Source of the DNA: Verrucomicrobiaceae bacterium
Lineage (GTDB): Bacteria > Verrucomicrobiota > Verrucomicrobiia > Chthoniobacterales > JAATET01
Assembly: GCA_027488755.1 (NCBI GenBank)
Contig: JAIYAZ010000105.1
Span: forward strand, 19,900 to 83,899
Length of the DNA stretch: 64,000 nucleotides
Direction of reading: 5' to 3'
Part shown: positions 3,668 through 11,009 of the stretch, piece after piece
How positions within the stretch are numbered: position 1 is the first letter of the stretch
Layout of the letters: each line of letters starts with the position of its first letter
Position numbers and translations under genes: made by a program
Notes under the pieces: generated by a model
What the model saw: only the letters and a program-made list of their open reading frames with translations
Databases searched by the model: none
What the model was told of the DNA's origin: nothing

Positions 3668-6346
3668 CTATGCGGCAAAGGCGGTGACGCCTTCGGGGTG
3701 GGCGGCGTGCGCGGCGAGGTCGATGGCTTCCCAGACGCCGAGCTGGCGGCCGAGATTCCATTCGCGGAGGCGTTCGACGGGGTCGATCGCGGCCTTGAGG
3801 CGGTCGAGGGTGGCCTCCCAGGCGGGGAGGTCGGTCGAGTCGAGCATGATGCCGAGGGCTTCGCGGCCGGCCTCGGCGGCACCGAGCACGCGCGCGGCGA
3901 GGGCGGGTTCGTCCTCGAGGAGGAGGGCTTCGCCGAAGATGTGGAGCAGGAAGGGGGTGACCCAGCGGTTGCCGAGGCGGCGCGCGGTGGCGGTCCATTC
4001 GTTGAGGGCGGCGCGGGCGGCGGCGGCGTCACCATCCGCGACGCAGGTGCGGGCGATGCCCCAGAGCAGGTAGCCGCAGACCCACTGGTCGCCGACGGAG
4101 CGGTAGATGGCGAGGCTTTCCTCGCGGAGGCGGCGGGACTCCTTGTAATCGCCGCGGTCGGCGGCGCAACTGGCGAGGCCGCTAAGGCCGACGGCGGTGA
4201 GGGTGACGTCGCGGAGTTCGTGGCCGGCCTCGACGGCGCGCTGGAAGTGGGCGTCGATGCCCTCGGTCTGGCCGAGGTTGCGGCGGACGAAGCCGAGGAA
4301 GGCGAATTGCAGGGCGGCATCGCGGGTGCGGCCGAGGTTTTCGAGCAGGGTGACGGCCTGTCCGTAGTATTCGTTGGCCTCGGTGGAGTTGTCGCGGCAC
4401 CAGGCGATGCGGCCGGCGCCGACGAGGGCATCGGCGCGGGCGTCGGTGGGGGCTTCGGCCCCGGGGGCGGTGAGGAGCATGTCGAAGGCGGCGCGGGCTT
4501 CCTCAAAGTTCCCGCGGATTTCGGCGAAGCGGGTGAGGCAGCCGATCATGCGCAGGCCTTTTTGCACGCGGTCGGGGGATTCGGCGGCCCAGTTGGCGGC
4601 GAGGCGGAAGTTGAAGAGGTCGGCGTTGATGCGTTCGAGCCAGAGGGCGGTCTCGGGGCCTTCGAGTTTCGGGCGGGCGGTTTCCGCGAAGGCGAGGAAG
4701 TAGTCGAGGTGGCGGTCGCGCAGGGCGGGGAATTCGCCGGAGGCTTCGAGGCGCTCGCGGGAGTATTGCCAGACGGACTCGATCATGGTGTAGCGGGTTT
4801 CGTCGTTGGCGTCGGTTTCCACCGAGAGGAGGGATTTGTCGACGAGGAGCTGGAGGAGGTCGAGGGCGTCGTAGGCATCGACGCCGTCGCCGGTGCAGAT
4901 GGCCTCGATGGCGTCGATCGTGCGGCCGCCGCCGAAGACCCCGAGGCGGCGGAAGAGGACGCGTTCGCTTTCGGAAAGGAGGTCGTAGCTCCAGTCGATG
5001 AGGGTGCGGAGCGTCTGCTGGTGCGGGAGGACGGAGCGGCCGCCGCCGGTGAGGAGGCGGAAGCGGTCGTCGAGGCGGGTGGCGATTTGCTCGGGGGTGA
5101 GGACGCGGGCGCGGGCGGCGGCGAGCTCGATGGCGAGCGGGATGCCGTCGAGGCGCCAGCAGATCTGGGCGATGGCGGCGGCGTTTTGGCGGGTGATTTC
5201 GAAGCCGGGTTTGACGGCGGCGGCGCGGTCGATGAAGAGGCGGACGGCCTCGTATTGGGAGATGGTGGCGGCGAGGTCGGGGACCTGGAAGAGGTCGCGC
5301 GCGGGGTCGATGATGCCGAGCGGGGGGACGGCCCAGGTGCGTTCGCCGGCGATGCCGAGGGAGGCGCGGCTGGTGGCGAGGATTTTGATGGTGCTGCAAC
5401 CGCGGAGGATGTCGGCGACGAGGTCGGCGCAGGCGTTGAGGACGTGCTCGCAGTTGTCGAGGATGAGGAGGATGCGCCGGCCGCAGAGGAAGCGGATGAG
5501 GGCCTGGCGCGGGGATTCGCCGGGCTCCTCGCGCAGGCCGACGGTGCCGGCGGCGAGTTCGACGATGCGCTCGGGCTCGGAGATGGTGGCCAGTTCGACG
5601 AGCCAGACGCCGTCGGGGTAGTCGCCAAGGATTTCCTCGGCGACCTGGATGCTGAGGCGGGTTTTGCCGGTGCCGCCGGTGCCGGTGAGGGTGAGGAGGC
5701 GGGTTTCGCCGAGGAGGCGTTTGACCTCGGAGCGGTCGCGTTCGCGGCCGACAAAGGTGTTGAGCAGGGTGGGGAGGTTGTTCGGGGTGATCTCGAGGGT
5801 GCGCAGGGGCGGGAACTCGGCCGGCAGTCCGGGCAGGGCGAGCTGGAAGAGGTGCTCGGGCCGGGTGAGGTCGCGCAGGCGGCGTTCGCCCAGGTCGCGG
5901 AGCATGACGCCGGGGTGGAGGTGGTCGCGCACGAGCTCCTCGACGGGCAGCGAGAGCAGGACCTGGCCGCCGTGGGCGGCGGCGAGCATGCGGGCGACGC
6001 GGTTGAGGCTGTTGCCGAAGTAGTCGTTGTCGCGGAATTCCGCCGAGCCCGCGTGGAGGGCCATGCGCACGCGGAGCGGGCCGGTTTCGGCCCAGGGCTC
6101 CTGGTGGAGGGCGGACTGGGCCTGGGCGGCGGTGTTCACGGCGTCGCCGGCGCGGTCAAAGGCCACGCAGAAGGCGTCACCGATGGTTTTGAACACGTAG
6201 CCGTCGTTGGCGGCGATGGATTCCCGGAGGATTTCGTCGTGCCGGCGCAGGGCGACCCGCATGGCCTCGGGGTGGCGCTCCCAGAGCCGGGTGCTGCCCT
6301 CGATGTCGCTGAACAGGAAGGTGACGGTGCCGACCGGCGGGTTCAT
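3668..6346 (-). CDS. Class III nucleotidyl cyclase fused to STAND/NB-ARC-like ATPase and TPR-like repeats
   Basis: Cyclase domain TVTFLFSDIEGSTRLWERHPEAM...KTIGDAFCVAF...FGNSLNRVARML; Walker A TLTGTGGTGKTRL; LILDNCEHV Walker B; helical repeat C-terminus. Confidence 0.85.
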   Translation of the reverse strand: MNPPVGTVTFLFSDIEGSTRLWERHPEAMRVALRRHDEILRESIAANDGYVFKTIGDAFCVAFDRAGDAVNTAAQAQSALHQEPWAETGPLRVRMALHAGSAEFRDNDYFGNSLNRVARMLAAAHGGQVLLSLPVEELVRDHLHPGVMLRDLGERRLRDLTRPEHLFQLALPGLPAEFPPLRTLEITPNNLPTLLNTFVGRERDRSEVKRLLGETRLLTLTGTGGTGKTRLSIQVAEEILGDYPDGVWLVELATISEPERIVELAAGTVGLREEPGESPRQALIRFLCGRRILLILDNCEHVLNACADLVADILRGCSTIKILATSRASLGIAGERTWAVPPLGIIDPARDLFQVPDLAATISQYEAVRLFIDRAAAVKPGFEITRQNAAAIAQICWRLDGIPLAIELAAARARVLTPEQIATRLDDRFRLLTGGGRSVLPHQQTLRTLIDWSYDLLSESERVLFRRLGVFGGGRTIDAIEAICTGDGVDAYDALDLLQLLVDKSLLSVETDANDETRYTMIESVWQYSRERLEASGEFPALRDRHLDYFLAFAETARPKLEGPETALWLERINADLFNFRLAANWAAESPDRVQKGLRMIGCLTRFAEIRGNFEEARAAFDMLLTAPGAEAPTDARADALVGAGRIAWCRDNSTEANEYYGQAVTLLENLGRTRDAALQFAFLGFVRRNLGQTEGIDAHFQRAVEAGHELRDVTLTAVGLSGLASCAADRGDYKESRRLREESLAIYRSVGDQWVCGYLLWGIARTCVADGDAAAARAALNEWTATARRLGNRWVTPFLLHIFGEALLLEDEPALAARVLGAAEAGREALGIMLDSTDLPAWEATLDRLKAAIDPVERLREWNLGRQLGVWEAIDLAAHAAHPEGVTAFAA

Positions 6347-7116: not shown

Positions 7117-7190
7117 TCGGGGCGACAGGATTCGAACCTGCGACCTCGTGGTCCCAAACCACGCGCTCTACCAAGCTAAGCTACGCCCCG
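7117..7190 (-). tRNA. tRNA-Pro (anticodon TGG)
   Basis: Reverse complement CGGGGCGTAGCTTAGCTTGGTAGAGCGCGTGGTTTGGGACCACGAGGTCGCAGGTTCGAATCCTGTCGCCCCGA; acceptor CGGGGCG/CGCCCCG, anticodon loop TTTGGGA, T-loop TTCGAAT. Confidence 0.95.
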
Positions 7191-7409
7191 TGAATGCGGA
7201 CGATGACCGATAATGCCGGGCGGCGCAAGCGGAGGAAGCGGGGCCGGCAGCGGCCGGGGATTCTGCGCCGGGAGCCCGCCGGAAACCAGTCCCTCCGCCC
7301 TATGGCCGGGGGCGCGCCCCCGTTTTTGATTGAATCCCCCGGAGCTTTGGGGTCGAAATGAGCATCGCAGGCTCGGAGCCATGCGTAAGTTCGAGAGATT
7401 ATTTCCAAC

Positions 7410-8741
7410 GTGGCGAAAGACTTAATTCAAAAGTGCCGCGAGTATCGCGACTCAGCCGATGCTCGGGCCCAGGGCTTTTACCCTTACTTCCGCCGCATCG
7501 ACGACACCATCGGCAACCACGTGATCTGCGACGGTGTTTCGCGGATCATGATCGGTTCGAACAACTACCTCGGCCTTGCCCAGGATGAACGGGTCATCGA
7601 AGCGGCCTGCGACGCCGCGCGCAAATACGGCGCGGGCTGCACCGGCTCCCGGCTGCTGAACGGCAACATCCGCCTGCACGAGCAGCTCGAGGAGGCTCTC
7701 GCCGACTTCCTTCAGCGCGAGTCCGTGCTTCTGTTTTCCACCGGCTTTTTTGCCAATCAGGGAGCCCTGGCCAGCCTCACGGACCATGAGGACGCCATCC
7801 TCTGCGACCGCGAAAACCACGCCTCGATCATCGACGGCTGCCAGTTTGCCCCGGCGAAGCTCGTGCCCTTCCGGCACAACTCCGCCACCTCCCTCCGCAA
7901 CCGCCTCAAGCGCCAGCCCGACACCGCCGGCAAGCTCGTCGTGCTCGACGGCGTGTTCAGCATGTCCGGCGACATCGCCGACCTGCCGCCCATCATTGAG
8001 GCCGCGAAGGAATTTGGCGCGCTGACCTACGTGGACGAAGCCCACGCGCTCGGCGTGCTCGGCCCGCTCGGCCGCGGCACCGTCCACCACTTTGGCCTCA
8101 ACGATGAGGTCGACCTCGTCATGGGCACGTTCTCGAAGTCGCTCGGCTCGATGGGCGGCTTCATCGCCGGCAAGCGCGAAGTGATCGAATACCTCCGCCA
8201 CAAGGCCCGCTGCTTCATCTTCACCGCCTCGCTTGCCCCGGCCGTCGCGGGCGGCGTGCTCAAGGCGCTCGAACTCATGCAGGCCGAGCCCGAGCGCATC
8301 GACGCCCTCTGGCGGAACACCCGCAAGATGCACGAAGGCTTCAAGCAGATCGGCTTCAAGATCGGTACCACGCAGACGCCCATCGTGCCCATCCTCATTG
8401 GGAGCGAGGCCCGCGCGTTCCAGTTCACCCAGCGGCTCTACGAAGAGGGCGTATTTGCCACGCCCGCGATCTACCCCGCCGTGCGCTACGGTGAGGCCAT
8501 CGTCCGCACCAGCTACATGTCGAGTCACACCGACGAGGACCTCGACCAGGTCCTGGAAATTTTCGCCCGGCTCGCCCGCGAGCTTGGCACGTTTGACGAT
8601 CCCGCCTATTCCGAACCTGGCCGCCGCAAAAATGTTTTCGATTTCAGCCTGTCATACACCGAGGGATCGGACGCGGTTCGAAACGGTGCCGGAGACCCTG
8701 CACGGAACGGATCCGAGTTTCATCCCGCCGTTTCCCGGTAG
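7410..8741 (+). CDS. spt: Alpha-oxoamine synthase, serine palmitoyltransferase-like
   Basis: GSNNYLGLAQDERV, DRENHASIIDG, VDEAHALGVLG, PLP-Lys motif GTFSKSLGSMGGFIAG; C-terminal half resembles bacterial SPT (EEGVFATPAIYPAV). Confidence 0.8.
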   Translation: MAKDLIQKCREYRDSADARAQGFYPYFRRIDDTIGNHVICDGVSRIMIGSNNYLGLAQDERVIEAACDAARKYGAGCTGSRLLNGNIRLHEQLEEALADFLQRESVLLFSTGFFANQGALASLTDHEDAILCDRENHASIIDGCQFAPAKLVPFRHNSATSLRNRLKRQPDTAGKLVVLDGVFSMSGDIADLPPIIEAAKEFGALTYVDEAHALGVLGPLGRGTVHHFGLNDEVDLVMGTFSKSLGSMGGFIAGKREVIEYLRHKARCFIFTASLAPAVAGGVLKALELMQAEPERIDALWRNTRKMHEGFKQIGFKIGTTQTPIVPILIGSEARAFQFTQRLYEEGVFATPAIYPAVRYGEAIVRTSYMSSHTDEDLDQVLEIFARLARELGTFDDPAYSEPGRRKNVFDFSLSYTEGSDAVRNGAGDPARNGSEFHPAVSR

Positions 8742-9750
8742 CGTCGCGAAGTTTCTCAAGCCGGACAGCCTCTTCAACCGGCAGGACGGCACCATCACCG
8801 GCTTCCTCGCCGAGCGCGACGGCCGCGTGGTTGGCCGCATCGCCGCGATCGTCAACCGCTCCCACAACCGCTACTGGCAGGACCAGATCGGCTTCTTTGG
8901 CTGGTTTGCCTGCGAGGACAACGCCGAGACCGCCCGCGCGCTCTTTGCCGAAGCCGCCCGCGTGCTCCGCGAGGCCGGCTGCACGGCCATCCGCGGCCCC
9001 TACAACCCGAACATCAACGAGGAATGCGGCCTCCTTACCGAGGGCTCCCACGAACCGCCCAACATCTCGGTGCCGTGGAATCCGCCCTACTACGCCGCGC
9101 TGGTTGAGGCGGCCGGGTTCGAGGTTACGCGCACCCTTTACGGCTACCACCTCCCTCTGCACATCGGCATCCCGAGCCGCGTGCAGAAAATCGCCGCCCG
9201 GCTCAAGCAGCGCTCGCCCGACATTCACATCCGCTCGTTTGACATGAAACGGCTCGACGAGGAGCTGCGCCTCGCCCACCGGCTCTACAACGTCACGCTC
9301 GACCGCAACTGGGGCTTCGTTCCCATCTCCGAGGCCGACCTCCTCGCGGCCGCCGACGACCTCAAGGCCTTCGCGGATCCCGATTTCCTCATCTTTGCCG
9401 AGGTCAACGGCGTGCCCGCCGGCTTCATGCTCACGCTGCCGAACTTCAACGAAATCCTCGCCGGCACCAAACGCTGCCCGCGCTGGCTCCGGCTCCCGTG
9501 GATCCTCTGGCTCATGAAAACCCGCCGCATCCGCAGCGTGCGCCAGGCCGTGCTGGGCGTCGCGCCCGAGCACCGCGACCGCGGCATCGCCGCCCTCATG
9601 TGCAACGAAATGGTCCTGCGCACGCAGAAAACCGCGGAGTTCGCCGAGCTTTCCTGGATCGAGGCGAATAACACCGAAGTCATCAACCTGATTGGTCTCA
9701 TGGGAGCCCACCAATCCCGCACCTTCCTGATTTACGAGAAAGCGTTGTGA
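8632..9750 (+). CDS. BcerS-like/YghO-like GNAT-fold protein, putative bacterial ceramide synthase
   Basis: RFETVPETLHGTDPSFIPPFPGSVAKFL...GFLAERDGRVVGRIAAIVNRSHNRY...GFFGWFACEDNAETARALF...AIRGPYNPNINEECGLL; family-typical N-terminus. ATG 8632 is the best in-frame start. Confidence 0.7.
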   Translation: MFSISACHTPRDRTRFETVPETLHGTDPSFIPPFPGSVAKFLKPDSLFNRQDGTITGFLAERDGRVVGRIAAIVNRSHNRYWQDQIGFFGWFACEDNAETARALFAEAARVLREAGCTAIRGPYNPNINEECGLLTEGSHEPPNISVPWNPPYYAALVEAAGFEVTRTLYGYHLPLHIGIPSRVQKIAARLKQRSPDIHIRSFDMKRLDEELRLAHRLYNVTLDRNWGFVPISEADLLAAADDLKAFADPDFLIFAEVNGVPAGFMLTLPNFNEILAGTKRCPRWLRLPWILWLMKTRRIRSVRQAVLGVAPEHRDRGIAALMCNEMVLRTQKTAEFAELSWIEANNTEVINLIGLMGAHQSRTFLIYEKAL

Positions 9751-9787
9751 GCCTGTGTCCGGCCGCGTCGCGCACCTTCGCTCACCC

Positions 9788-10768
9788 GTGAAACTTCTCC
9801 TCACCGGCGCCACCGGCTTCGTCGGACAGAACCTCCTCCTCGCCGCTCTCGCCTCCGGGCGCTTCACCGAGATCCTCACGCCCGTCCGCGATCCGGAGAA
9901 ACTCACGCGCCAGCTTGCCTTCGAGGGCGTCAACCCCGGCCCCGCCCTGCGCGTCACCGCCTGGCAGGACCCCGTCCCCGGCGACGTCACCCACGCCGTC
10001 CACTGCGCCGGCTCCCTCTTTGCCCGCGACCGCGCCACCTGCTTCCGCGTCAACGTCGACGACACCCTCCGCCTCCTCGCGCCGTTGCCCGCCGCCGCCC
10101 GCGTGCTCGTGCTCTCCTCGCAAAGCGCCGGTGGCCCCACCCCGCCCGGCCGCGAGGCCCGCACCGCCGCGGACCTGGACACCCCGCTCACCTGGTATGG
10201 CGAATCCAAGCTCGCCATGGAGCAACGGCTCGCCGCCGAGCGGCCCGACGCCATGGTCTGGCGGCCGCCCATGATCCTCGGCCCCCGCGACCGCGCCACC
10301 CTCCCGCTTTTCCAAATGGCCGCCGGCCCGCTCCGCATCAAGCCCGGCCTGCGCCCGAAAGCCTACAGCTGGATCGCCGTCGACGACCTCGTCCGCGCCA
10401 TCCTCCACGCCATCCAAAATCCAAAATCCAAAATCGAAAATCCAATGGGCGTCGCCGCCCCCGAGCCGATCACCGACACCGAGCTCATCGCCACCGCCGC
10501 CGCCGTGATGGGGGCCCGCGGCCGCACGCTCGCGCTGCCACACCCGGTCATCCGGCTGGTGTCGGCCGTGGTCGATGCCGTGCCGCCCCTGCGCGAAGGC
10601 ACGCCGAGCCTTACGCGCGACCGCGCGCGGGAAATCTTCCCCGAGCGCTGGGTGCTGGATGCCTCGGTCTTTCGGGAGCACTTCGCCGTCGGCCCCTTCG
10701 CCGGGCTCTCGGAGACCCTCGCCGCCACCCACGCCTGGTATGTGCGCGCGGGCCAGTTGCCGGGATGA
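9788..10768 (+). CDS. NAD-dependent epimerase/dehydratase (extended SDR); candidate ceramide reductase-like
   Basis: VKLLLTGATGFVGQNLLLAAL Rossmann motif; HCAGS; YGESKLAMEQ (YxxxK). Start GTG 9788. Confidence 0.75.
   Translation: MKLLLTGATGFVGQNLLLAALASGRFTEILTPVRDPEKLTRQLAFEGVNPGPALRVTAWQDPVPGDVTHAVHCAGSLFARDRATCFRVNVDDTLRLLAPLPAAARVLVLSSQSAGGPTPPGREARTAADLDTPLTWYGESKLAMEQRLAAERPDAMVWRPPMILGPRDRATLPLFQMAAGPLRIKPGLRPKAYSWIAVDDLVRAILHAIQNPKSKIENPMGVAAPEPITDTELIATAAAVMGARGRTLALPHPVIRLVSAVVDAVPPLREGTPSLTRDRAREIFPERWVLDASVFREHFAVGPFAGLSETLAATHAWYVRAGQLPG
10412..10446 (+). repeat. Heptanucleotide tandem repeat (ATCCAAA)n, about 5 units, inside CDS
   Basis: atccaaa atccaaa atccaaa atcgaaa atccaat; encodes [12 protein letters not shown]. 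Confidence 0.9.
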
Positions 10769-10799: not shown

Positions 10800-11009
10800 G
10801 TGAAAGAGCAAATCGAGGCCTTGTTGCGGGCGACGCCGTTCGAGCCCTTTGCCGTCGAGATCGATCAGGATCTCGCGTGGTCCATCCCGTCGCCGGATCA
10901 CGCCATGGCGGCGAAGTCCGCGCTCGTCATCGAGGACGACGCCGGACTCGTGCACCTCGTTTCCTATCGCCACATCCGGCAGGTCGTCCACAAGGCGCCC
11001 GCGCCCTGA
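10800..11009 (+). CDS. Small uncharacterised protein
   Basis: GTG start; VKEQIEALLRATPFEPFAVEIDQDLAWSIPSPDHAMAAKSALVIEDDAGLVHLVSYRHIRQVVHKAPAP. Confidence 0.55.
   Translation: MKEQIEALLRATPFEPFAVEIDQDLAWSIPSPDHAMAAKSALVIEDDAGLVHLVSYRHIRQVVHKAPAP

Follow-up and report, generated by a model that had tools for sequence, protein, structure and literature searches.

An spt-GNAT-SDR gene set with overlapping genes in a Verrucomicrobiaceae bacterium, a candidate operon for ceramide backbone synthesis

The DNA analysed here, referred to as the window, is a stretch of 64,000 nucleotides from a Verrucomicrobiaceae bacterium (contig JAIYAZ010000105.1, positions 19,900 to 83,899). Open reading frames and their translations place three consecutive genes, spt, GNAT and SDR, on the + strand between positions 7410 and 10768, and the gene order and adjacency described in a previous sequence-only reading of this DNA were reproduced, with family matches well above chance level. 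The features of the locus and its surroundings are:

7117-7190, - strand (opposite to spt): tRNA-Pro, upstream of spt
7307..7322, + strand: terminator-like stem with T run, upstream of spt (consensus scan only)
7410..8741, + strand: spt, predicted serine palmitoyltransferase (SPT), 443 aa, GTG start at 7410, Bacteroidota (CFB)-like
8632..8741, + strand: dual-coding overlap of the spt 3' end and the GNAT 5' end, 110 nt (length conservation, codon-position substitutions)
8632..9750, + strand: bcerS-like (yghO/aca family) putative tandem-GNAT N-acyltransferase, 372 aa, ATG start at 8632
9755..10768, + strand: cerR-like extended SDR, open frame from GTG 9755, with GTG 9788 as the likelier start because homologues begin at residues 10-12
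Downstream of SDR: a metallo-beta-lactamase-fold gene, then purD (called from the sequence by eye)

The stem and T run at 7307..7322 represent a possible operon boundary. No promoter was found when the locus was scanned, such a scan being uninformative for Verrucomicrobiota. Two other open reading frames of the window may be mentioned: one of 69 aa between SDR and the lactamase-fold gene (10800-11009, + strand), with no family match in Pfam or NCBIfam, and one at 3668-6346 (- strand) for a large signalling regulator of 892 aa, in which adenylate/guanylate cyclase, STAND/AAA and TPR domains are combined.

When the product of the first gene was searched by sequence against all PDB chains, the top matches were the Sphingobacterium SPT structures 8guh/3a2b (388 bits), followed by a bifunctional KBL/BioF enzyme (299 bits), Sphingomonas SPTs (280-291), E. 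coli KBL (262), cysteate acyltransferase (239) and BioF (up to 204 bits). The ungapped alignment with 8guh covers 384 residues (45.6% identity), and residues H137, D209, K243 and R366 align with H138, D210, K244 and R367 of that structure; we take them to be the stacking histidine, the aspartate, the PLP lysine and the substrate arginine, respectively. NF047600 (SPT, CFB type) was the best NCBIfam model, with 478 bits, while KBL, BioF and related models gave 387-410 bits. Since this score stays under the strict cut-off of 640 for NF047600, which is a database criterion and not a biochemical one, we regard the protein as a divergent SPT, its putative function being claimed from tree and context and not as an NCBIfam equivalog. 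In a tree of 87 sequences all SPTs, that of the window included, formed one clade (98/95) together with the Sphingobacterium, Sphingomonas and E. coli enzymes; KBL, BioF, 8s1y and a BioF-like paralogue from the same genome (L005) fell outside it. Alpha-oxoamine synthases from several families of the class (L214-L235), of putative function, also fall within the SPT clade, and the SPT model gave the best score in the two members of this group that were tested.

The sequence-only reading had preferred SPT over BioF or KBL because of a C-terminal segment. The preference was borne out by the full-length score, the profile ranking and the tree, where the first gene did not group with BioF/KBL, but the argument from the motif was not: the segment EPERIDALWRNTRKMHEG...TQTPIVPI...EEGVFATPAIYPAV is nearly as well kept in the bifunctional KBL/BioF enzyme 8s1y/7poa (EPERVERLWENTR...), and since this enzyme of known structure has it too, the segment alone cannot separate SPT from KBL/BioF. 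This shared motif and the 387-410 bits obtained with general BioF and KBL models could be taken to mean that the first gene encodes KBL or BioF and that the three genes together serve some unrelated metabolic purpose, which we consider extremely improbable in view of the higher scores with SPT models and structures, the position of KBL and BioF outside the clade, the presence of bCerS and CerR homologues as neighbours and the existence of a separate BioF-like gene in the genome. For the first gene itself, a KBL/BioF identity was rejected on scores and tree.

The window SPT would use L-serine and a long-chain acyl thioester. The same three-step logic could nevertheless be applied to another amino acid, with a 1-deoxyceramide (from alanine or glycine) or a sulfonolipid of the capnine type (from cysteate) as product. 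Alpha-oxoamine synthases vary in amino acid use, cysteate C-fatty acyltransferase 28eh is among the PDB matches, and the use of alanine by Spt, leading to 1-deoxyceramides, is discussed in a survey (PMC11334938). However, with 239 bits the cysteate enzyme ranks behind serine SPT (388 bits), and all SPT key residues are kept (residue conservation being no proof of serine specificity), which makes another amino acid improbable.

According to Pfam, the product of the second gene contains only a weak GNAT domain, and a sequence search against PDB gave no match. Its AlphaFold model (pLDDT 90.9) has a tandem GNAT fold, and a fold search of this model against PDB placed tandem GNATs on top (E 8e-16), with N-myristoyltransferases also matched. 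The link to bCerS was made by comparison with YghO of E. coli BL21, to which the window GNAT is 28% identical over 386 columns, full length (E 2e-53), the equivalence of YghO with the CC_1154 family being taken from PMC9386255. The proposal that the second gene belongs to the BcerS/YghO family is supported by end-to-end homology and a common tree. In a family-alignment scan of the genome collection, the YghO family was detected in numerous Pseudomonadota, where spt, cerR, acpR and aasR adjoin it.

The third product, for which a CerR-like extended SDR had been proposed, is in agreement with that assignment: it shares 28% identity over 317 columns with the epi/CerR product of E. coli BL21 (E 2e-20), the homology extending into the C-terminal part beyond the Rossmann fold, and it presents the GxxGxxG (GATGFVG), Ser (SSQS) and YxxxK (YGESK) motifs, along with a Pfam Epimerase match of 4e-16. 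A periplasmic location has been reported for Caulobacter CerR; in the window SDR no obvious signal peptide was seen when the translation was judged by eye. Its PDB sequence matches include NDUFA9 (7ar7, 7a23), a homologue of CerR (PMC11087976), which also fits the proposed identity.

Neighbourhood conservation, suggested earlier as a check, was evident across the order. Contiguous spt-GNAT-SDR was found at at least 22 loci in five families (one locus with two GNATs), and ten further loci in the order have spt-GNAT with SDR not adjoining. Strong matches to both GNAT and SDR were present in 61 genomes, to only one of them in 3 and 1, and to neither in 132, so that the two occurred together in 61 of the 65 genomes having either (Fisher p 5e-46, a value that ignores shared ancestry); two genomes of the set of three carry SDR fragments, their assemblies being incomplete. 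The co-occurrence persists in genomes with an unlinked SDR and therefore supports a functional, not merely positional, tie. No acpR or aasR homologue was found in the operons of the order, and the search for AasR in the genome of the window gave only generic, weak AMP-ligase matches (best E 1e-8). Acyl carrier proteins are encoded elsewhere in that genome (contig 13), outside the operon. At two loci of another family of the same order, f2 (L039 6511-9990 and L119 6312-9375), a BioF-like alpha-oxoamine synthase has a more distant GNAT (32%) in its vicinity and no close SDR.

Ceramide is a lipid of membranes, familiar mainly from animals and plants. With a probability of roughly 0.87, the three genes would constitute an operon for the synthesis of its backbone. 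Homology, catalytic motifs, operon conservation and dual coding of the overlap were established by computation; substrates, step order, translational coupling and the lipid itself are inferred. SPT, a PLP enzyme, would form 3-ketosphinganine from L-serine and a fatty acyl thioester (acyl-CoA or a housekeeping acyl-ACP being the likeliest donors); the tandem GNAT of YghO/bCerS type would carry out the N-acylation of 3-ketosphinganine, and the CerR-type SDR, with NAD(P)H, would reduce the 3-keto group to give dihydroceramide. Against this reading, GNAT and SDR are just 28% identical to the proteobacterial references, and there is no partner equivalent to AcpR/AasR, which proteobacterial SPTs need. 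Regarding the order of steps, acylation before reduction has been argued for Caulobacter (PMC11087976), and the opposite model has been noted (PMC9386255). Replacement of LPS by sphingolipids, as in Sphingomonas, was considered separately and is unsupported, LpxC being present in this genome and in 28/28 genomes searched.

The ATG of the GNAT gene at 8632 sits within spt, the stop codon of which is located 110 nt downstream of this start, and SPT residues 408-443 are encoded within the overlap. This arrangement had not been noted in the sequence-only reading and is new here. The exact length of 110 nt is found in the window, in 3/3 other members of the genus tested and in further f4 and f53 genomes, that is, in three families (f1, f4 and f53); elsewhere the overlap measures 134 nt (f3) or 50 nt (f52), and it is absent in genus g106. 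In the part of spt that precedes the overlap, substitutions were concentrated at third codon positions (0.16, 0.09 and 0.55 for positions 1, 2 and 3), and inside the overlap they changed to 0.33, 0.24 and 0.27, the peak corresponding to the third position of the GNAT frame. Given this shifted pattern, the overlap behaves as expected for DNA read in two frames; it evolves as double-coding DNA. Read in the other frame, the DNA of the conserved GNAT motif DPxFxPPFPGS gives the SPT tail HPAVSR-stop, from which we infer that this tail arose via overprinting onto the GNAT start. No remnant of the spt 3' end was seen upstream of stand-alone type-B GNATs. A start 110 nt inside spt makes translational coupling of the GNAT gene to spt probable, and such coupling would result in matched enzyme levels.

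Comparison with genomes of the same genus gave identities of 87-90% for SPT, 63-66% for SDR and only 55-57% for GNAT; with the stand-alone GNATs of genus g106, which belongs to another family, the window GNAT shares 69-70%. In the corresponding trees, the window SPT and SDR fall with their own genus, whereas GNAT joins the g106 stand-alone copies (100/100), and forcing it into the genus was rejected (AU p = 0.0002, with the group chosen after the tree had been seen). The window GNAT is assigned from these comparisons to a paralogue lineage other than that of the operon copies of the genus, which is also new here. Its first ~38 residues are genus-like and the remainder resembles the other lineage (permutation p 0.014). 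This suggests that the gene body, beyond the overlap, was exchanged; it is no more than suggestive, because the overlap constrains those first residues.

The odd position in the tree could also reflect an ancient duplication followed by differential loss within the genus, and not import. Two copies do coexist in some operons, as in genome G240, where tandem GNATs lie between spt and SDR, and genus g106 retains both GNAT types. Yet the GNAT type of the window is absent from the other three members of the genus, which have one GNAT each, and the composite sequence just described fits replacement of the gene body, albeit as a suggestion. Duplication and loss is in our opinion a genuine possibility, with somewhat less than an even chance. 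The tandem pair of G240 (locus L095, 5711-10372) is of interest in itself, since its members are possibly ceramide synthases with different chain preference.

Returning to exchange of the gene body, a broader proposal would have the overlap as a selected coupling device, the SPT tail overprinted, the body of bCerS swapped with the overlap kept and the acyl chain of the ceramide altered; taken as a whole, we consider it speculative and rather unlikely.

Related gene sets were observed in other genomes. Class-level relatives of family f8 encode a protein of ~1350 aa with KS, ACP and PKS-dehydratase domains and a C-terminal alpha-oxoamine synthase (AOS), the gene for which adjoins or overlaps one for a YghO/bCerS-like GNAT. 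The fused PKS/AOS plus GNAT loci are:

L036, 8945-13000, - strand
L038, 4642-8616, + strand
L040, 9336-13358, - strand
L041, 4619-8734, + strand

By its domains, the f8 protein looks like a fused version of SgaAB, the PKS/AOS sphinganine route of Pseudomonas (PMC12134224), plus a ceramide-synthase-like acyltransferase. Another genome of the same phylum (G130) has a yghO, aasR, cerR, acpR, spt cluster of proteobacterial type (L037, 7912-13416), and its sequences nest among Geobacter-like ones in the GNAT and SDR trees, suggesting that this cluster was gained by horizontal transfer.

In E. coli BL21, spt/acpR/epi/aasR/yghO form a ceramide gene set matching CC_1162/1163/1164/1165/1154 of Caulobacter, and yghO (ECD_02850), the counterpart of CC_1154, has aasR, epi, acpR and spt as neighbours (PMC9386255), a yghO/aasR/epi/acpR/spt cluster that can be seen in the RefSeq record of the strain. 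The three core enzymes of the window are homologous over their full length to the BL21 proteins, with the same predicted chemistry. The differences from the Caulobacter crescentus/BL21 set are the lack of acpR and aasR in the operon, with no convincing AasR in the genome, an SPT nearer to the Bacteroidota type, and the order spt-bcerS-cerR, with spt and bcerS overlapping. The SPT of Sphingobacterium multivorum (8guh/3a2b) is the closest solved relative and has the same catalytic residues, but the window SPT has an extended C-terminus, for which the overlap codes. According to PMC11334938, Bacteroidota that produce sphingolipids do not carry the three genes close together, whereas in the window they form an operon.

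That survey of Black Sea metagenomes lists 22 MAGs of Verrucomicrobiota, the phylum of the window, with Spt-like proteins as predicted sphingolipid producers, and describes in general terms the clustering of spt with bCerS and CerR; neither this operon, nor the overlap, nor the replacement of GNAT is described in its accessible part (PMC11334938). The literature searched contained no lipid study of this group. The operon would represent a compact bacterial route to ceramide that lacks a dedicated acyl carrier, kept over at least five families, and the overlap together with the putatively replaced acyltransferase would be a natural experiment on swapping a ceramide synthase inside a fixed operon. 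The pathway had already been predicted for Verrucomicrobiota, and what the window contains is a known kind of gene set in an unusual arrangement.
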